From: Sinohyriopsis cumingii
Taxonomy: Eukaryota; Mollusca; Bivalvia; Unionida; Unionidae
DNA length: 64,000 bases
Reading direction: 5' to 3'
NCBI GenBank assembly: GCA_028554795.2
Contig: CM068842.1
Span: forward strand, 23,532,590 to 23,596,589
Position numbers and translations under genes: made by a program. How positions within the stretch are numbered: position 1 is the stretch's first letter; every line of letters begins with the position of its first letter. Positions 3,299 through 52,524 of the stretch are shown piece by piece. The notes under the pieces were generated by a model. The model was not told the origin of the DNA, ran no database searches, and saw only the letters and a list, made by a program, of their open reading frames with translations.

Positions 3299-4076
3299 GT
3301 AAGGAGTGTATCTGTTGATATATTAACTTCTTTTAGACCTTCCTGATGCATCCAGTTTATTTTTTAAAGTTGTTTTTTGGCTGCTGCTGTGAATAAATTA
3401 GATTAATAAATACAGTAATAAATACAACTGTTGAACAATACACCAGTAAATGAATTCATTTTGGTGAATTTAACATGTAACAAACCACAGAGACATAGAT
3501 GATCAGCAGCATGTGTTGTAATTGGATCTATCATTCTTGACGTGATGGATAAGACAGTTTGCACAAAAGTATTGACAGGTTTCTGGTCATGACGTAATTG
3601 AAAGTACCTCCCTTTATTGTGGAAAATAGTAGGTAGTGCTAGTGGTTTGTACCTACAAAAAAAGTAAACTCTAATAAATATAGGTTACATTAATACAAAA
3701 ATAAAAAAATAAGCTGCATTGTCATGAAACTAATGGAACCTTTCTAAAGATTGATTGTAGACTCCACCCCCACCCCCATTAAAAAATTAACAGATTGCAA
3801 CTAACAACTCACCGGCCACTGCTGTTGCTGGATAGGTGTGAGTATTACATAAATACAGCCATGCTGTATAATTGTTACCTGACTTGTGAGAATAACTCCA
3901 ACATCTTAATAAATTGCTACTAAGTAACATATACTGATTTGCATAGTCACAGTGTCATAATTTCTCATCGAATTTCTGTGGAACATTTTGTCCAACATAA
4001 AGATTTGGATTTTTATCTAAGTTCCTATTTTAATAAATAGGCAGAATTACCTCTACTCAGCTGATCTATCAATTGT

Positions 4077-5064
4077 ATGCCTATGTCATGCACTGTGTAT
4101 GGAACATATATTATTAACTTCCTATGCCTATGTCATGCACTGTGTATGGAACATATATTATTAACTTCCTATGCCTATGTCGTGCACTGTGTATGGAACA
4201 TATGTTATTAACTTCCTATGCCTATGTCATGCACTGGGTATGGAACATATATTATTAACTTCCTATGCCTATGTCATGCACTGTGTATGGAACATATATT
4301 ATTAACTTCCTGTGCCTATGTCGTGCACTGTGTATGGAACATATATTATTAACTTCCTATGCCTGTGTCATGCTCTGTGTGTGGAACATATATTATTAAC
4401 TTCCTATGCCTATGTCATGCACTGTGTATGGAACATATATTATTAACTTCCTATGCCTATGTCGTGCACTGTGTATGGAACATATGTTATTAACTTCCTA
4501 TGCCTATGTCATGCACTGGGTATGGAACATATATTATTAACTTCCTATGCCTATGTCATGCACTGTGTATGGAACATATATTATTAACTTCCTGTGCCTA
4601 TGTCGTGCACTGTGTATGGAACATATATTATTAACTTCCTATGCCTGTGTCATGCTCTGTGTGTGGAACATATATTATTAACTTCCTATGCCTATGTCAT
4701 GCACTGTGTATGGAACATATATTATTAACTTCCTATGCCTATATCATGCACTGTGTATGGAACATATATTATTAACTTCCTATGCCTCTGTCATGCACTG
4801 TGTATGGAACATACATTATTAACTTCCTGTTCCTATGTCATGCACTGTGTATGGAACATATATTATTAACTTCCTATGCCTATGTCATGCACTGTGTATG
4901 GAACATATATTATTAACTTCCTATGCCTATGTCATGCACTGGGTATGGAACATATATTATTAACTTCCTATGCCTATGTCATGCACTGGGTATGGAACAT
5001 ATATTATTAATTTCCTATGCCTATGTCATGCACTGTGAATGGAACATATATTATTAACTTCCTA
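4077..5064. repeat. 47-bp minisatellite, about 21 copies
   Basis: The unit runs atgcctatgtcatgcactgt and on to ...attaacttcct, 47 bp, head to tail. Diagnostic variants (tcgtgc; catatgtta; cactgggta; cctgtgcc; gtcatgctctgtgtgtgg) recur in the same order six units apart: units 3-7 match units 9-13. The array therefore has a 282-bp higher-order repeat and later single-unit spread. Confidence 0.95.
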
Positions 5065-5795
5065 TCTATCCATCAATCTGTCCATCCATACATTTTCATA
5101 TTTTTGTTAGAGCTTAATCAGTTTAGAAGCTCTGGTTAGGCAGTCAGATTTTTAACAAGGCTATTTGCTAGATGTATATATAAATTTAGTTTGATTTTAA
5201 ACTTTGGTTATATTTGATTGGGGGCCTCCTGTGTGCTGACAGATGTAGAATGGCTTATTCAGGTTGTTGGAGGTTCCTAATGGGGGCAACCTCTTTGACA
5301 TGAGATATGTTCCATTAAGTTGTTCCAGCAGAGTAGCTATGGGAAGTGTTAAAAATGTACAATAAAAAATTGGACTTTGTATCTTGAAGATTTCCCCACA
5401 TTTGCTTTTATCTTTGTTTTCTGAGTCTTTATTATGCTGTCTAAACCACTATGCACTACATAGCCAAGATTGTGCTGATGTGCCTTTACACCCTGTATAT
5501 ACATATATTTGACAGGATAGTGGTTCCTGCCTGATCAAGGCTTCTATGCCAAGACACATTGACTTTAGAAAGACTGGGTGAATTGTCTTTTGCATTGTTT
5601 TGTTCCATTTATGTATAACAATTTGCTTGTAGTTCAGATCACTCACTAAATTTAGTTTTAGAAAACAAAAATAATCTCACTAATACTTATGTAGTTCTGA
5701 CCTGCAGAATTTATGCGAGTCATTTTTGACCTCTTTTTGTACATTTTGAGAGTTTTTGAAAGATAAGGTGATTGTTAGCTCCACAGATTCTTAGC

Positions 5796-19023: not shown

Positions 19024-20057
19024 CAATTAAAGTATATGATTATGCAAATGTAGTTACATGAACTGAAACTTTTGGTGTTTGCAGTCTAGAACATTTTTAC
19101 ATAAAACGCCAAGTGCAGCCTAACAAATCTTTTTTTTTTTAAACTATGATGTATTTAACCTTTATACTTGGAAAAACTGTCTGCATTGGTCCCTTGAATG
19201 TTATAGATTTCCAGATTTCACTTGATATTTTTATATTTATTCAGAATTGAAACTCTTTTATCCAACAGTTTGTCTTAGCAACCTCAGATTAACAATAAAT
19301 CTTAAATTTAGTCTTAGCTTAAGCTATTTCATTGATAAATTTTAAGTTGGACTTACATTTTACCAGTCATATCACTGGATTCTATACTTAAGTTTAAATT
19401 CTGCTGCTTCCAAGCCATTGTTCTAACAAAATAGTAATTTTATTTCTTCAAGTAGATATTCCCTTTCAGTTGTCTGGAAAAAATGTGCTGAACTAAATTC
19501 AATATTATTATTATAATACCCGACAGCACAACAGCCAAATTAATTTTAGTAAATAAATCAATTTCAATTTCATTTAGAAGAACAAAAGACCCCTCTTAAT
19601 ATTTTCTCATGAATATTAATGACTGACTCAAAGTGAGGCTAACTGAACATAGCTGTCTATAGTGATATATTGGCTACTTCTTACAGTGACAAGGAATTAG
19701 ATTTTTTGCCGCCACTTACCTTTTTATTTGTTGAAGCAAGCTTATATGAAGGTAAATAAGAAGTCATCTGGTGATAAATCCATGAACAAGGGATTCAGGT
19801 ATTTCAGTGAAGGATGCATCCAAGATCTAAGAGGTAAGTGTTGTTTTCCTTATCATCCACACTGTGTTGGAAATAATTGTTTCACCGATACATTTGCTTT
19901 GCACTCCTTTTCTTTCCCTCTGTTAAAGCTATTAGCACTCATCCCCTAAACAAAATGGGAGATTTCCTACATCAGTTTATATCCTGACCAGTCTGTCCAA
20001 GATTATATCTCTCCATAAGGTATCATTTTCCCAAAGATTATTGCCAGTTTACAATAA

Positions 20058-22453
20058 CACTGGACAACAAATTTTTACAAAAGTCATGTTACTGAAATAA
20101 AATTAGTCAATTCTTATCAATTTTTATGTGCTGAACACGAATATGACAGTCAAATTGCAAAATTGGCTCTAGTTTTTTTGTAATCTGCAAGAAATTAATG
20201 TTTACATAACGAAATGCATTCCAATAGTAAAAGGTCAACTGTAATAGCCTACCTATAAAAAATCAAGTCATTGACTACATCTTAGATTTCTTCGCCTGTC
20301 TCTTGTACGTTCGGGAGCATCTCTGAGGAGTGTCCAGCAGTAGTCAGCCAGCATTGTAGTGGACCATTTTCCCTGGTATCTTTGTTCCATTGTTGCGATA
20401 TCTTGATGAAAACGTTCGCCGTGTTCATCACTAACAATACCACAGTTGCTAGGAAAGAAATCCAAATGGGAATGAAGGAAGTGAATCTTTAGAGACATAT
20501 TGCAGCCAAGTTTCTTATACTTCATCAACATGTCTTCTACTAGTTCCTTATAGTTTTCTGCCCTAACATTTCCGAGGAAGTTTGTAGAAACTAGGCGAAA
20601 AGCATTCCATGCTTGTTTCGCGTCACCTTCCAGCAAGTTGTTGAACCGGTCATCTTTGAAAAGCTCTCGAATCTGAGGACCCACAAAAACTCCCTCTTTA
20701 ATCTTTGCTTCGCTGAGTCGAGGGAATTTTTCATGCAGGTATCGGAATGCTGGCAAAGTCCGGTCAATGGCTTTCACGAAGTTCTTCATCAAACCTAGTT
20801 TGATGTGAAGGGGTGGTAGCAAGATTTTCTGAGCCTCAACCAGAGCTGGGTGTTGGATATTCTTCTCTCCAATGGCTACATTCTGCCTGTGAGTCCATTC
20901 CTTCCTCATGTAGTGCATTTCCCTTGCTCGGCTATCCCACTCGCATAAGAAACACATGTATTTTGTATATCCTTGCTGCAGTCCCATTAAAAGGGCAACT
21001 ACCTTCAAATCACCACAGAGGTGCCAGCTGTACTTGTTATACTCAATGGAATTCAGTAGCTGCCTTAAGTTATCGTATGTCTCTTTCATGTGGACAGCAT
21101 ACGCTACTGGAATAGATGGAAGAATGTTTCCATTGTGCAAAAGCACAGCCTTGAGACTCAGTTTCGAAGAGTCCACAAATAGTCTCCATTCTTGTGGGTC
21201 ATGAGTGATTTTTAAAGCATTCATGAGGCCCTCAATATCGGAACAGAATATCAGATTACTTTCCTTTCTGAAGAAAGGCTCCAATTGCTGGTGGCGCTTT
21301 CGATATGCAGTAATTGTGACATCTTCTTCTAGAAGATTCCATTGTTGGAGTCTTGATCCTAGCAATTCTGCCTTGTTCTTTGATAAGTCCAAATCACGAA
21401 TCAGGTCATTTAGTTCTTCCTGTGTTATTCTGTGTGGGGTTGATGATGCACCACAGTGAAAATCTGGATCACTGCATGCTGATGGACCAGGAGAAGAACA
21501 GGTCGACTCACCTTTGTCTTCGTCAGATGAATCAAGAGAATATTCTGCTGGAGGTTATGGAATAGGAAGTCCCTCACCATGTGGAACTGGTCTCAATGCA
21601 GACGGAATGTTTGGGTAGACTATTCTCGACTTCTTTCGCTTCGTTATTCCGCCGGAAAGAGGAGGAACCAAGCAGAAGTAACAGTCATTTAGGTGGTTGC
21701 TTGGCTCTCTCCACACCATTGGGACTGCAAACGGCATTGATGACCTTTTGCAATTCAACCACTGTGAAAGCTGTGTTGTACATGTAGCACAGCATATATG
21801 CGGAGCCCAAGGCTTGTCTTGGTCACCAACCTTGCATCCGAAGTAAAGATGATATGCCTTCTTCACTTGAGAATTGATACTTTTCTTCTGGTTGGCAAAT
21901 GTCACTTCCCCACAAATATAGCAAAAATTGTCCGCGGTATTAACACACTTTCGAGGCATTACTGTTCTTTATTGTACGTAAATGGATAAAATAATAAGTT
22001 TTATGTAACAGTAGCTTGAACTGTCTCGCACAACGTCTAAAATATTTTAAATGCTGAACCTATCTGATTGGGCTTTATATAGTACACTGCTTACGTCAGC
22101 TTCAGCAGCCGCCTGGCATTAGTATAATAGGCCTACACATGTATAGTACACTGCTGACGTCAACTTACTTCAGCAGCCGCATGGCATTAGTATTGCATTG
22201 CATCAGAAAATGATGCAATCAACTGTGGATGATGTGAGCATGATGGTATTATGCAATGTTACATCATTATTCCGGATGTTGCTGCAGTCCTACTGGAGAA
22301 ATTTACACAGTGAAACATAGAAAATGAGGTATATGAATATCTTCAAAACGAGAGCCAATACAAATTTTTCACGGTTATATTCGTGTTCGGCACACCAAAA
22401 TACTACAGATTAGGGCCTTTTCAAGTCAGTAATGATTTCACTGTTGACCAGTG
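20058..22453 (-). mobile_element. CACTG-TIR DNA transposon (CMC/EnSpm-like), 2.4 kb
   Basis: The terminal inverted repeats start CACTGGACAACA (20058) and, in reverse from 22453, CACTGGTCAACA. They remain alignable for about 110-120 bp, including a well-conserved inner block (GAACACGAATAT... ATTGGCTCT). TAA sits on both outer sides (20055-20057; 22454-22456), a 3-bp target duplication. CACTR ends with 3-bp duplications are characteristic of EnSpm/CACTA elements of the CMC group. The only long ORF inside is the - strand transposase-like gene at 20268-21959. A 50-bp segment with a tatagtacactgct...cagcagccg core is duplicated at 22077-22193, upstream of the ORF start. Confidence 0.85.
20268..21959 (-). 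pseudogene. transposase-like gene with one in-frame stop
   Basis: A single reading frame of 563 codons runs from ATG (21957-21959) to TGA (20268-20270), interrupted only by TAA at 21555-21557. That stop lies right after ..GEGLPIP, where related proteins I recall have Lys (AAA to TAA would suffice). The N-terminal part has CxxC pairs (CYIC, CCATC, CYFC), suggesting a zinc-binding module. The C-terminal 374 residues carry possible acidic catalytic residues: Asp in RLFVDSS (codon near 21171), Asp in CGDLK followed by CFLCEWDSR, and Glu in SDEHGERFHQD. The Asp...CxxC order resembles CMC-type DDE transposases. The family occurs as multi-copy genes in arthropods and cnidarians, as I recall. A Met just after the stop region (21392) could start the DDE part alone. 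Confidence 0.8.
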
Positions 22454-22848
22454 TAATCAAAATAACTTGATCAAGTTTCAGATCTCCAAGCAATATCAAG
22501 GCTAGAATATGTATGGCATTGATAACTTTACATGTAAAACAGTTCTCAGTTTTGTGGTACCAAATTTACCATAATACATTGTAAAAAAATTCAAATCAAA
22601 GTGTTACAGGCAAAATGAGAGTAGAGTAGCTATTGTTATGATTATTATTAGTGAGACCTTCAATAATGGATCTGAGGTGACGGGCAAGTGTTATAGATCT
22701 CAGAAGAAAATGAAACACAACATCAGATTACAGTAATTTGTATGATTATGCATATTGCTTGAATCATAAAATTTTCAAGCTTATTTTGTAACAGGAAAAA
22801 TAAATCTAAAAATAGATGTTTCATATGGTTACATTTTAATCATTGCAG

Positions 22849-24060
22849 GTCATATTTAAAGAAATATCGAAGGTTACATCAACATCTGCATTCTGCAATT
22901 GCCCTATAGAACTAACAGGATCATGTGGACATATTGTTGGTCAACTCTATCAGCTAGCCAAATACAAACTGCTGGGACAAAGGGCACTTCTAGAAGATAT
23001 AGCACAAACATTCCAGCCTCAAACCTGGCATGCTCCAAGAGGGGGAAAAAACTTAAAGGAAAAGCAGTACCAAATATTGAAATAAGAGGATATGCTAATA
23101 CAACAGACACCTCATGGGATAAAATCTACACTATACAACCCTATTCCTGGGGATAATGTGGACTCGGAACACAATATATTCATCCTAAAAAATGCTGACA
23201 GTTCCATGTTCATCTTACCAGCATTGAAATTACCTTCCGCCACATCGGCACAAACAAAATTTGGTTTAGTACCTCGTAGTTCTGTCCTAAGCTACCAACA
23301 AAAGCCAGAGACTCACTGTATTATAATTATGTATGATGACACATCATTTCCAGACCTGCTCTGCTCTAATTACGTGACAAATCATCTTCAGATAGCAATA
23401 AAAAATCCTCAAAGTATACAGTTGGAGGGTTTAAATATGACCATGGGCAAAATAAAAAATTTTGAATATAAAATAATACTCCAAAGCCAGAGTTCATTGT
23501 GGCACAGGATCAGAAGAAATAGAATTACAGCATCAAGAGTAGGAGAGATTTACAGATGCCACAAGGATCCCACCATCTTAGCTAGAAGATTAAAATCAGC
23601 AAGAAATGTTACATCTGTAGCTATGATCCAAGGGTTGGCAACAGAACCTGAAGCAGCAAAAACCCATCCATTACCCAACAAAACCCATGTTAACCTCTAT
23701 CCTTGCAGAGTGATTGTAAATTTTTGATGTCCTTGGTTTGCTGCAAGTCCAGACAGAAAAGTATACAATCCCAAAACTAACCCATCTTTTGGTTTATTAG
23801 AAATTAAGTGTCCTCCAGTCAGGACTGTCCTAGAGCTCTCATATCTGGCAAATGATCAAAATGGAGTTCTGAATGTGAACAAATATCACAAGTACTAGTA
23901 CCATATTTTGACACAGCTTGCAGTTACAGGATTACAGTGGTTGGGTTGTTTGATTTGGTGTCAAAATGACCAGCGTATAGAAACAATATATTTCAACCAA
24001 GCTGTTTGGCAGCAAGTAAAATATAAGGTTGATTACATTTATTTCAATTACTATCTTTAA
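22849..24060 (+). pseudogene. SWIM zinc finger / YqaJ-type nuclease pseudogene
   Basis: After a splice-acceptor-like attgcag (22848), one frame runs to TAA 24058-24060 with three in-frame stops (TAA 23083, TGA 23725, TAG 23896). The start encodes FCNCPIELTGSCGHIVGQLY, a SWIM-type CxC...CxH zinc finger. The second half contains WHRIRRNRITASRVGEIY, GLATEPEAA, AASPDRKVYNP and GLLEIKCP. These match the YqaJ viral-recombinase/exonuclease fold, with the Asp of SPD and the E-x-K of EIK as metal-binding residues. SWIM-YqaJ proteins of this kind are abundant in cnidarian and mollusc genomes and accompany ISL2EU-type DNA transposons. The C-terminus ends tail to tail with a THAP/transposase remnant on the other strand. 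Not functional in this copy. Confidence 0.8.
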
Positions 24061-31840: not shown

Positions 31841-31933
31841 AAATGCTTTTCAACTGAATATGGCAATGGAGGGACACTTTCAGTATCAGCTTGGAATATA
31901 TTTCATTGTGTTGTTCACTTTGTTGTCTAGCTT

Positions 31934-33082
31934 ACCCATGAATACCATGAAAATTGATACCCATGAATAACATGAAAACTGATACCCATGAATACCATGA
32001 AAATTGATACCCATGAATACCATGAAAATTGATACCCATGAATACCATGAAAATTGATACCCATGAATACCATGAAAAATTGATACCCATGAATACCATG
32101 AAAAATTGATACCCATGAATACCATGAAAATTTATACCCATGAATACCATGAAAATTGATACCCATGAATACTAGGAAAATTGATACCCATGAATACCAT
32201 GAAAATTTATACCCATGAATACCATAAAAATTGATACCCATGAATAACATGAAAACTGATACCCATGAATACCATGAAAACTGATACCCATGAATACCAT
32301 GAAAATTGATACCCATGAATAACATGAAAATTGATACCCATGAATAACATGAAAAATTGATACCCATGAATACCATGAAAAATTGATACCCATGAATACC
32401 ATGAAAATTGATACCCATGAATACCATGAAAATTGATACCCATGAATAACATGAAAACTGATACCCATGAATACCATGAAAATTGATACCCATGAATAAC
32501 ATGAAAATTGAATTCCAGGAATACCATGAAAATTGATACCTATGAATACCATGAAAATTAAACTCCATGAATACCATGAAAATTGATACCCATGAATACC
32601 ATGAAAATTGATACCTATGAATACTAGGAAAATTGAACTCCATGAATACCATGAAAATTGATACCCATGAATAACATGAAAACTGATACCTATGAATACT
32701 AGGAAAATTGAACTCCATGAATACCATGAAAATTGATACCCATGAATAACATGAAAACTGATACCCATGAATACCATGAAAACTGAACTCCATGAATACC
32801 ATGAAAATTGATACCCATGAATACCGTAAAAATTGATACCTATGAATACTATGAAAATTAAACTTAATGAATACTATCAAAATTGATACCCATGAATACC
32901 ATGAAAATTGATACCTATGAATACCAGGAAAATTTTACTCCTTGAATACCATGAAAATTGAACTCCAAAAATACCATGAATATTGAACTTCAAGAATACC
33001 ATGAAAATTGACACTCCATGAATGCCATGAAAATTGAACTCCATAAATACCATGAAAATTGATACCCATGAATACCATAAAA
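31934..33082. repeat. 25-bp minisatellite, about 46 copies
   Basis: The unit is acccatgaataccatgaaaa plus ttgat. Variants include aacatg, actgat, aactcc and indels. The unit has no stop codon in any - strand phase, and 25 is not a multiple of 3, so all three - strand frames stay open for long stretches (up to 317 codons). These ORFs are a by-product. Divergence rises towards the right end (32860-33082). Stray units lie at 33877-33911 and 34210-34230. Confidence 0.97.
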
Positions 33083-33321
33083 AAACAGACGGGTTTCTTT
33101 GATTTGAAACTTGGCCTTGCAGATTGATTATATTGATAAACAAGTTAGTTAGCAGACTAGTCTGTACCATTAAAGAAAATGGTGCCAGATATTAATTGAA
33201 ACAGGCTTCTACGTTTTGACTTGTGGATGAAAATTCTTAGAGCAGTTAATTCTTTTTAAACTTCAAAACATGTCTAATTTGAAAAAGGGCAAATCAACAC
33301 TGCTGTACAAATTTGTAAAGA

Positions 33322-44029: not shown

Positions 44030-47000
44030 GTTGACTGCATGCCAGCCAACAACTACTATATCTCGGATTCAAAGGTTATGTCTGAATGCATGGCTCAGAG
44101 ATTGCTCCAAGTACACTGCGCATAAAACCCATTTTGGCCACAAACCAGGGGTTTGTGGGGTGATATTCTGTTCCCCAGCTTCACTGGAAGAAAGAGGCGC
44201 TAGAAATGTAAGGATTTTGGTTATTGAGATACAAATTGACTAAAAGATCCAAAAGATCTTTATCGTGCCTGATATCACATCTTCGGGTAGATGGGACTTG
44301 TAAACCTTGGATGGTAGCTCATCTAGGAGAAGGAAAACTCCGATTCCAAACCTCTGCTGCCTTGTGGCTATACCCACTCATGGGAAAGGCTAAGGGAGTA
44401 AACCCCGACAGAAAATCCGGAGATGGAGTCCCTAAGGCGGTATGACATTGACTTCAACGTCATTCCGGCAACTCCTGCGACGCCGTTGGTGCCAAGCTGT
44501 ATCGGCATTCGTCGTTCCCTTGGGCACACCAGCTGCGCGGAGAGGGGGGATCTGCTGCATGGGCAACAGCTGATTCTCCATACCACCCTGCCCAGGCTTC
44601 ATAGCTCCACTGGAGAGGACACTCCAGCGTCGTCGTACGGCGTCGGCACAACACGAGAAGTAGCAGTTTACCGGTTCTAAGTCAAAGCTCGATTGGCGTA
44701 GAGCTTGGCGCCAGGGGTTACTTCTGACGGTGGGAGAGATCATCAGGTCTCACTGGACAGCTACCGCCCGCCTCAAGCTGGGCAGCCCCCAGTCAGTAAG
44801 GTGCTGCCCGCCATGGCCTGCCTGCTTCACTGGGTGCGTGGAGTTTAGAGAACCATCTCGACAAGTGGGCCACAAAACTCTGCACCAGGGAAGACTAAAA
44901 GAAGAAATAAAAAGACTCCAACTCTTCGTTTTGCAACCTGGAACATCAGGACCATGTGTCCTGGATTGACCACTGACCTACAGCAGATCGACGATGCACG
45001 GAAGACTGCCGTCATTGACAGAGAACTCTCCCGACTGAACATCGACATTGCCTGCCTCCAGGAGACCCGACTGGCTGACAGCGGCACCATCAGGGAAGCC
45101 AATTACACATTCTTTTGGCAGGGGAAGCCCTTGGATGAACCTAGGCAGCATGGTGTAGGCTTTGCCGTCAAGAACACGCTAATCACCTTCATTGAACCTC
45201 CATCATCAGGTACTGAGAGAATCCTTGCCCTCCGGCTGTCAACATCCTTAGGCCCGGTCAACATCTTCAGTGTGTACGCTCCAACCCTCTACTCCACCTA
45301 CGAGGAGAAAGACAAGTTTTTTTGAGGTTCTGGATCAGGCAATATCCAGTATCCCCAACAATGAAAGCCTTTACTTACTAGGAGACTTCAATGCTAGAGT
45401 GGGAGCTGACCATGAGGCCTGGTCCACCTGTCTCGGCTTTTACGGAAGGGGCAAGATCAACGAGAATGGTCAGCGACTGCTGGAGATGTGCTGCTCCCAC
45501 AGCCTATGTGTGACAAACACTTTCTTCAAATGCAAGGAGATCCACCAGGTGTCGTGGAGACACCCACGTTCACGCCACTGGCACCAGCTAGACCTCGTCA
45601 TCAACAGGCGTGCAGAACTGGCCAGTGTCCTCCTTACCCGCAGCTACCACAGTGCCGATTGTGACACGGACCATTCCCTCGTGGCCAGCAAGGTGCGAAT
45701 ATTACCCAAGAAGCTGCACCACGCCAAGAAGAAGGGTCACCCACGTATCAACACCTGCTGTGCAAGCAACCCAGAGAAAACACAGCAGTTCATCAGCAAA
45801 CTGAAGGAAGCCCTCACCAAAGTGACACCTGATGACACCATTGATTCCAAGTGGTCCCATATCCGTGACTCTGTGTACAATTCAGCCATCACAGCTTACG
45901 GGAAGAGGGAGCGAAAGAATGTCGACTGGTATGAGGCAAACTGGGAGGAGATGGAGCCCGTGACTGAGGCAAAGAGGAAAGCCCTCCTGGCATACAAGGC
46001 TGCACCTAGCCCCAGAACACTACAAGCCCTCAGGATTGCAAGGAATAACGCCCAGAAGACCGCCCGCCGCTGTTCCAACACCTACTGGCTGAACCTTTGC
46101 AACAGTATACAGACAGCTGCTGACACCGGGGATACAAGAGGAATGTATGAGGGTATCAAACAAGCGACAGGCCCCCCCAGCTACAAGACCGCCCCCTCAA
46201 GTCCAAGACGGGCGAAGTCATCACAGACCAGGGGAAACAACTGCAGCGATGGGTTGAGCACTATCTCGAGCTATATGCAACCCAAAACAATGTCACTGGA
46301 ACTGCCCTGGACGCCATTCCAGACCTGCCTGTCATGGAGGAGCTAGACACACAGCCCACCCTGGAAGAGCTCGGAAAAGCCATCGATTGCCTTGCCTGTG
46401 GGAAGGCTCCCGGAAGCGACGGCATTCCGCCTGAAGTCCTCAAGAGCGGAAAACCAGCACTGCTCCAGCCCCTACACACACTCCTCTGCCTTTGCTGGGA
46501 ACAGGGATACATCCCACAGGACATGCGTGATGCCAACATCGTCACTTTGTACAAAAACAAAGGAGACCGTAGCGACTGCAACAACTATCGGGGCATCTCC
46601 CTCCTCAGCATCGTCGGAAAGGCCTTCGCCCGTGTTGCCTTGGCACGCTTGCAGATCCTAGCCTCCCGCGTCTACCCAGAATCCCAGTGTGGATTTCGAG
46701 CCGGCAGGTCAACTGTAGACATGATCTTCTCACTACATCAGCTGCAGGAGAAGTGTCGCGAGCAGCGGATGCCCCTCTACGTTGCCTTCATAGACCTGAC
46801 GAAGGCGTTTGACATGGTTAGTCGGAGTGGACTCTTCAGACTTCTGCAGAAGATCGGCTGCCCCCCACGTCTGCTTGCTGTCATTATGTCGTTCCACGAG
46901 AACATGCACAGCACAGTGTGCTTCAATGGCGCAACATCTGAAGCATTCCCAGTCGTTAGCGGAGTCAAACAAGGCTGTGTCCTTGCACCGACGCTCTTTG

Positions 47001-48045
47001 CCATCTTCTTCTCCATGCTTCTCCAGTACGCATTCAAGGACTGCAGCGAGGGAGTGTACATCCATACCAGGGCTGACGGCAAGCTGTTCAACATCGCCCG
47101 TCTCCGTGCTAAGACTAAAGTCACAGAGGTACTCATCCGTGAATTGCTCTTTGCCGACGATGCAGCCTTGACATCACACACGGAAGATGGACTTCAGCAG
47201 CTGGTATGCTGCCTCTCCCATGCATGTAAGGAATTTGGACTGACCATCAGTTTGAAGAAAACAAATGTCATGGCACAGGACACAGACTCCCCTGCCTCTG
47301 TCTCCATCGATGGGTACAATTTGGAAGTTGTCGAGAACTTCACATACCTCGGGTCAAACATCTCCAGCTCACTCTCCATTGATTCTGAGGTGGGCGGCAG
47401 GATTGCCAAGGCAGCAGCAGTGATGGCCAGACTTAACCAGAGGGTCTGGAACAACCCCAACCTCACAGAGAAGACCAAACTGCGTGTCTACCAAGCGTGC
47501 GTGCTCAGCTCACTTCTCTACAGCAGCGAAACATGGACCACCTATGCAAGACACGAGAGGAAACTCAACAGCTTCCACCTGAGATGTCTGCGGCGCATTC
47601 TGCACATCCAGTGGCAGGACAAAGTACCCAACACAGAGGTTCTAGAACGCGCCAACATGAACAGCATGTTCTCCATACTCAGCAAGAGGCGCCTTCGCTG
47701 GCTCGGCCATGTCAAGAGAATGGACCCAGGTCGCATTCCCATGGACCTGTTATATGGGGAGTTAGCAGAAGGTGCACGACCAACTGGACGACCACATCTG
47801 CGCTACAAAGATGTTTGCAAGAAGGATATGAAGACAGCAAACATCAATGTCAATGACTGGGAGAGCTGTGCAAACAACCGTTCCAGCTGGCGTCTAGCTG
47901 TCAGGCAGGGAGTTCAAAACGCAGAGGAAAAGAGAAGAATAAAGCAAGCTGAAAAGAGAGCTATAAAGAAGGATAAGCAAAAGCGTACTTTGGAGCTATG
48001 CCATCGTCTCTCGTAGACGGACGGATGCCAAGATCACATCTATCA
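44030..48045 (+). mobile_element. RTE-like LINE, near full length
   Basis: GC-rich relative to its surroundings and about 4 kb. A 5' UTR with taaaccccgacagaaaatcc and aaggcgg (about 44398-44440) precedes a single ORF with an AP endonuclease, reverse transcriptase and Cys-poor C-terminal tail. The 3' UTR is short (48017 to about 48045). Past that point the sequence is - strand DIRS-like coding debris, so the LINE probably landed in a DIRS-like copy. The 5' boundary is uncertain: 43950-44030 could still belong to it. The low number of lesions marks it as one of the younger elements here. Confidence 0.85.
44858..48016 (+). pseudogene. LINE ORF: AP endonuclease + reverse transcriptase
   Basis: About 1,050 codons in one frame but for two single-base indels, both in homopolymers: seven T at 45317-45323 (one extra) and five C at 46192-46196 (one missing). 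The second cancels the first. The endonuclease has RFATWNIRTM (about 44927), CLQETRL, GDFNARVG, RSRHWHQLD and DTDHSLV, the usual Asn, Glu, Asp and His residues. The reverse transcriptase has NNYRGISLL, GFRAGRSTVD, AFIDLTKAFD, SGVKQGCVLAP and FADD (47150-47161, the YxDD equivalent). The C-terminus carries RRLRWLGHV and a Lys/Arg-rich end before TAG (48014-48016). The layout and motifs fit RTE-type elements, often mislabelled craniofacial development protein 2. The exact clade is not resolved. Confidence 0.9.
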
Positions 48046-52210: not shown

Positions 52211-52524
52211 GTGTGTGTGATTAGGATTTTTAACGTAGCTTTAACAATGTTTTAGTCATATTTCTACGATGTCTGCAGTGTGGCAGTTTATATGATGTCT
52301 AGCATGGGGCATCATGCTGCAGACATGTAGTATGATGTCCCACCCAGTCATTATTTTGACCTCAGGCCGACCAGTCCTAACACTAACCTCTTAATGCTGA
52401 GCATCTAGCGAGGCAGCTGTTAGTATCATTTTTGTAAGTCTTTGGTGTGACTCGGCCGGGGTTCGAACCCACGACCTCCCGCTTCCGAGGCGGACGCTCT
52501 AACCACTAGGCCACCGGAGCGGTT
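52211..52524 (-). mobile_element. tRNA-derived SINE, family 2, best-preserved copy
   Basis: Reversed, the head reads GGTGGCCTAGTGGTTAGAGC (A box) and GGGTTCGAACCCC (B box), a nearly intact tRNA-like half. The body has aacagctgcctcgct, ggtcggcctgaggtc and a ttaaagctacgttaaaaatc end with a (CA)n tail. The 14-bp duplications acatacaacataat (52197-52210; 52525-52538) are identical, so it is recent. The family probably belongs to the molluscan tRNA-SINEs such as the V-SINE/RUDI group, but I cannot verify the name. Confidence 0.95.

Follow-up and report, generated by a model that had tools for sequence, protein, structure and literature searches.

Chapaev transposons carry CAC..GTG ends, and those of the Chapaev3 group generate TWA target-site duplications upon insertion between A and T, as described in excerpts of PMC4079192. 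All Chapaev3 elements examined in that study had TWA duplications, and their transposases, mostly encoded by a single exon, contain the C(2)C, LH, and H(4)H motifs (PMC4079192). Among these elements, Merrow encodes a protein of 78+484 = 562 aa within 2451 bp, and the copy numbers in Table 1 of the same paper reach >254 for transposase-coding and 281 for short non-coding elements (PMC4079192). In the consulted parts of the respective papers, Chapaev3 is treated as a sublineage of Chapaev within the CMCT clade (PMC12730594), or is placed in the Transib superfamily as kin of RAG1, with which it shares the Chapa zinc finger (PMC4411706); the zinc site of mouse RAG1 is formed by C727/C730 with H937/H942 (PMC4914335), and Chapaev3 fragments are listed in a fly (PMC3630058).

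We analyzed a window of 64,000 nucleotides (the whole stretch of DNA under study) from the genome of the bivalve Sinohyriopsis cumingii. The window contains an element that most likely belongs to the Chapaev3 group of cut-and-paste transposons (CMC, with kinship to Transib and RAG1), as a copy of an autonomous element that has since been inactivated; we assign this reading a probability of about 0.88. The features of the element are as follows.

20058..22453, minus strand (transposase strand): probable Chapaev3-type DNA transposon, 2396 bp
20055..20057, strand not applicable: target-site duplication TAA, left copy
22454..22456, strand not applicable: target-site duplication TAA, right copy
20058..20176, plus strand: left terminal inverted repeat, CACTGGACAACA end, imperfect up to ~110-119 bp
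22344..22453, minus strand: right terminal inverted repeat, CACTGGTCAACA end
20268..21959, minus strand: transposase frame, ATG at 21959-21957, terminal stop at 20268-20270
21555..21557, minus strand: in-frame stop codon of the window copy
21660..21959, minus strand: Cys-rich N-terminus, a probable Chapa-type zinc-binding region, 10 Cys and 3 His in residues 1-96

Inspection of the two element borders revealed that the outermost 12 bases of each end, read inward, are CACTGG(A/T)CAACA and that a TAA duplication flanks them, exactly as the first-pass annotation had described. The CAC ... GTG termini of Chapaev3 are present in the window copy; the 41 other copies analyzed below are not independent evidence on these ends, because they were retrieved by the end pattern. 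The span of 20055-22456 given in that annotation has the right limits and includes both TAA copies, the element proper being 20058-22453. The inverted repeat of about 110 bp that it reported does reach approximately base 110-119, and the window copy has a local alignment score of 33, whereas 1000 shuffles reached at most 20 and internal control segments 17, but it is perfect for only about 12 bp (except for the A/T at base 7). The transposase frame of the window copy consists of 134 residues, a stop, and 428 residues. The single nonsense codon noted previously is present (21557-21555), but the damage had been undercounted, and we rejected the reading of a frame with one break: 4 bp are missing close to the frame end, which replaces the last residues AKKSKM of the common form with RRNLRCSQ, and the window copy is 4 bp shorter than the usual 2400 bp found in 35 of the 42 copies. 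The RRNLRCSQ frame end also occurs in 17 of 19 further copies (L050-L068), in which nearby differences at the 3' frame end vary; this share is uninformative on frequency because the query favored those copies.

A search of the 2.9-Gb genome with the 12-base end pattern returned 5682 forward and 5689 reverse matches, compared with 364 and 396 for the reversed-pattern control. The copy number is estimated at about 5,300 if all excess ends are paired and, by extrapolation, at about 4,800 if the share of listed ends that lie in full-length pairs (84 of 100) is typical. Among the first 100 ends of contig 1 in the matches listed, 86 form 43 facing pairs within 20 kb and 14 are unpaired; the spacing is 2392-2401 bp in 42 pairs and 17,064 bp in one, and no short internally deleted derivatives were observed among these 43 pairs. 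Four of the 14 unpaired ends carry a CACTGGG variant, perhaps by chance, and the remaining ones may be truncated or changed copies. For the pair of ends 17,064 bp apart (G000:C1:1359902-1376965, comprising L006 and L007), the portions retrieved match the reference copy L031 at 100% identity, and approximately 90 bp are missing inside one half. This pair, together with the 14 unpaired ends among the 100, indicates that not every copy is clean. The copy set used hereafter (n=42) consists of 41 of the 42 full-length pairs, all within the initial 25 Mb of a single contig, and the window copy. An uninterrupted 562-aa frame is retained in 33 of the 42 copies. A protein search of the genome yielded 8773 first-look candidates, of which 98 were scored, and all 98 matches listed are 98-100% identical to the query.

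Analysis of the insertion sites revealed an exact 3-bp duplication in 38 of the 42 copies, with two copies matching at 2 bp only and two at none; in one of the exact cases the repeat runs on, so that the duplication appears 6 bp long. The genome search for same-ended copies that the first-pass annotation had proposed gave thousands of matching ends and, in most of the copies read, exact duplications and uninterrupted frames. The duplications are TAA (17), TTA (11), CAA, TCA, TAT, and ATA (2 each), and AAA and TTG (1 each). The TWA form (TAA/TTA) is found in 28 of 42 copies, an A precedes the duplication in 32 and a T follows it in 36, and 10 of the 38 exact duplications are non-TWA, so that TWA between A and T (A-TWA-T) is a strong preference here and not an invariant rule. 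For two insertions, the flanks rejoined with one copy of the duplication matched uninterrupted paralogues of equal length over all 157 bases, in 33 of 40 scored rows for L047 (94-98% identity) and in 34 of 40 for L040 (95-97% identity over all rows); the other rows lacked up to five end bases or differed in length by one to three. Insertions into tandem arrays were examined by removing the element plus 0-9 bp and comparing 30 junction bases with the copy's own flanks. In L038, L043, and L046, a single mismatch in 30 was obtained only when 3 bp were removed, the next-best trims giving 8, 9, and 4 mismatches, respectively. An identity scan of the tandem arrays alone does not pick out 3 bp, since other trims reach similar scores when combined with other periods. 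A fourth candidate, L042, was rejected as a tandem-array insertion, with a non-repetitive right flank and 13-16 mismatches at every trim. The near-identity of the copies (see below) would also be expected if assembly duplication or recent segmental duplication, and not transposition, had inflated their number. This explanation is very improbable, since the 38 rejoined flank pairs differ by eye, each with its own duplication, and element-free paralogous sites exist for L047 and L040. The copies, duplications, intact frames, and empty sites together support the earlier proposal of a CMC-type DDE transposon with a 3-bp duplication.

Comparison of the 42 copies showed a mean pairwise divergence of 0.38% and a maximum of 0.79%. 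Of 172 variants, 153 are private to one copy, 16 are shared by two copies, and 3 by three or more, the star-like pattern that rapid amplification of one or a few masters would produce. The private coding variants comprise 74 replacement, 7 stop, and 35 silent changes, and the silent fraction (35/116, 30%) is close to the 27% expected at random, suggesting that the copies drift freely after insertion with no purifying selection. This result bears on the idea of a host gene or domesticated transposase that merely resembles a transposon, an idea in keeping with a long protein that is intact in most copies. It is extremely improbable, because the copy structure, with thousands of dispersed ends, target-site duplications, and empty sites, already contradicts it, and the near-random silent fraction speaks against it as well. 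The transposon family comprises an estimated 5,000 copies, and their star-like near-identity points to a very recent expansion from one or very few masters. The private changes amount to 0.15% per copy (153 over 42 x 2400 bp), and animal mutation rates are 1e-9 to 1e-8 per site per year, which places the burst at roughly 0.15 to 1.5 million years ago, or less if assembly errors contribute. A literature search on bursts of comparable scale, covering titles and abstract openings, found none.

Inspection of the protein indicated three candidate DDE residues, D263 (VDSS), D317 (GDLK), and E515 (GER), whose catalytic role is suggested by the sequence, along with a C(2)C motif (C336/C339), an LH motif (residues 384-385), and an H(4)H motif (H493/H498). 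The putative DDE residues are thus accompanied by all three motifs published for Chapaev3, and the size of 562 aa in 2400 bp lies within the published 556-562 aa and ~2.3-2.45 kb. The distance between D317 and C336 is 19 residues, the same as that between D708 and C727 of mouse RAG1 in the consulted part of PMC4914335. The 10 Cys and 3 His within the first 96 residues would be compatible with a Chapa zinc finger. Searches of Pfam (with both pieces of the window protein) and NCBIfam gave no family at E values up to 1, and the window protein had no Pfam match to the RAG1 core model. A genome search with PF12940 gave no match, but none was obtained in its 14 control genomes either, which makes this negative uninformative. 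By sequence, the PDB returned one chain only, a choline-binding protein (E 0.64). With a set of 13 fragments, a profile search of the PDB returned two beta-lactamases (E ~0.01) and one further chain (0.7), and Pfam returned five families with one fragment each (best E 0.0064); both results were taken as chance. A single-sequence model of the 428-residue piece, run as the fold check, had a mean pLDDT of 39, too low for use. No relative was found in phages by tblastn, in viral contigs by protein or by three back-translated motifs, or in prokaryote contigs, where there were six pattern matches. A fourth back-translated motif matched three viral contigs and was rejected, with no likeness beyond the motif (best E 0.10).

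The genome was also searched with an E515-motif pattern built to leave out the codon that the family normally uses, which gave 42 matches versus 0 in the control. At the motif, 19 of these 42 loci are nearly identical to the family, unlike the other 23; eight of the 23 were retrieved, of which one (L081) showed no match to the protein. The other seven (L079, L080, and L082-L086) are decayed relatives with 34-82% identity over stop-free pieces, and their sequences point to earlier waves of the same kind of element. They seem to fall into two groups, a closer one of L080, L082, L084, and L085 and a more distant one of L079, L083, and L086. Asp is kept at position 263 in five of six readable relatives and at position 317 in five of six, with Val in L083. 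Glu is found at position 515 in all seven, two of them with a second reading, a count biased by the choice of loci through the motif around E515. E515 is preferred as the candidate catalytic Glu because the neighboring E512 is replaced by Val in one relative. In the C(2)C motif, none of the seven has a clear first Cys, although two show it in one of two readings, and three retain the second Cys. An unambiguous His stands at position 493 in three of the seven and at position 498 likewise in three, with two more at each position having His in one of two readings.

The window contains several other features. Approximately 630 bp past the transposon, a 213-aa open frame (23086-23727, plus strand), which we take to resemble a YqaJ-type nuclease, weakly matches a viral alkaline exonuclease, with an E value of 0.003 and a score of 16.8 bits that falls short of the curated cut-off (20 bits). 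A probable non-LTR retrotransposon lies at 44849-48016 on the plus strand, with one frame resembling an endonuclease (Exo_endo_phos, E 8.7e-07) and one for a reverse transcriptase (RVT_1, E 1.4e-33). A tRNA match of 38.7 bits at 52448-52520 on the minus strand may represent either a tRNA gene or a repeat derived from a tRNA. Two large tandem arrays are located at 31933-33083 (25 bp x 46) and 4076-5065 (47 bp x 21), the former containing two open minus-strand frames of 233 and 335 codons.

Based on these features, a transposition mechanism can be proposed. The Cys-rich N-terminus would bind the inverted repeats, and a predicted RNase-H-like DDE core formed by D263, D317, and E515 would cut next to CAC..GTG, probably stabilized by a putative zinc site of the C(2)C and H(4)H motifs. 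Insertion would then occur with a 3-bp stagger, preferentially at A-TWA-T, and one or very few masters would have given rise to the recent expansion, with possible activity at present. We further propose, tentatively and at slightly less than even odds, that a Chapaev3 invasion is under way or just over in this genome, with some 5,000 autonomous copies that are nearly identical and for the most part intact, a star-like pattern, and no internally deleted derivatives among the pairs examined; the element may still jump and may have been acquired horizontally. If so, the family would greatly exceed in size the Chapaev3 families listed in PMC4079192, and an active RAG1-related transposase could be drawn from it as a natural source. 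A young family with copies in the thousands, the majority of those read being intact, provides material for direct activity tests of RAG1 kin, and the lack of short derivatives in the pairs examined may reflect a stage before non-autonomous parasites take over. The scale and youth of the burst are what stand out, and the classification looks already solved.

As for the classification, the first-pass annotation had expected that tying the protein to clean termini would define a transposon superfamily. This expectation did not hold, because the ends, TWA duplications, motifs, and size of Chapaev3 are already published, as seen in excerpts of PMC4079192. The ends, the A-TWA-T target, the motifs, and the size found here match those descriptions, and the element thus represents a family that is apparently new to us, judged against Chapaev3 by its published descriptions, and of a known kind. 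Another CMC lineage, either an undescribed sister group or EnSpm/CACTA-like elements of animals that end in CACTG, might resemble Chapaev3 to this degree, as CMCT lineages share C(2)C and H(3-4)H motifs, mostly CA..TG ends, and 2-5 bp duplications in the consulted part of PMC12730594, the protein matches no family model, and TWA is a preference here. We consider this unlikely, since the A-TWA-T preference, the LH motif, and 562 aa in 2.4 kb are published Chapaev3 traits and all are seen in this family. Several observations do speak against the Chapaev3 reading: the protein has no Pfam or NCBIfam match, four of the 42 copies are without an exact 3-bp duplication and 10 of the 38 exact ones are non-TWA, unlike the published Chapaev3 elements, and C(2)C is poorly kept in the decayed relatives, one of which has Val in place of D317. 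EnSpm/CACTA elements are similar in their CMC motifs, CACT-type ends, and 3-bp duplication, and differ in having CACTA termini versus CACTG here, a weak distinction because some animal EnSpm elements have CACTG ends. The plant CACTA transposases are covered by Pfam models such as Transposase_21 and the like, and neither protein piece matched these models at E values up to 1.

The Transib/RAG1 core resembles the protein in its order of D..D..C(2)C..H(4)H..E, and, for the RAG1 part consulted, in its D-to-C spacing. Transib and RAG1 produce 5-bp target duplications, in contrast to the 3-bp duplications here. Garfield, from silkworm and bracovirus, is similar in size (556 aa, 2289 bp), TWA duplication, and motifs, and differs in having two exons and only 2-16 coding copies, or >7, where counted (PMC4079192). 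In silkworm, Garfield also has 97 copies of a 468-bp derivative, whereas no such short form occurs in the 43 pairs here. Merrow, from lamprey, encodes a protein of the same length in a slightly longer element (562 aa in 2451 bp, versus 562 aa in 2400 bp here), and the CAC..GTG ends, the TWA duplication between A and T, and the C(2)C, LH, and H(4)H motifs published for its group or superfamily in excerpts of PMC4079192 are likewise shared. Merrow differs in having two exons, compared with the single frame here, and the largest count of transposase-coding Chapaev3 elements, >254 (PMC4079192), contrasts with the estimated 5,000 copies of the family described here.
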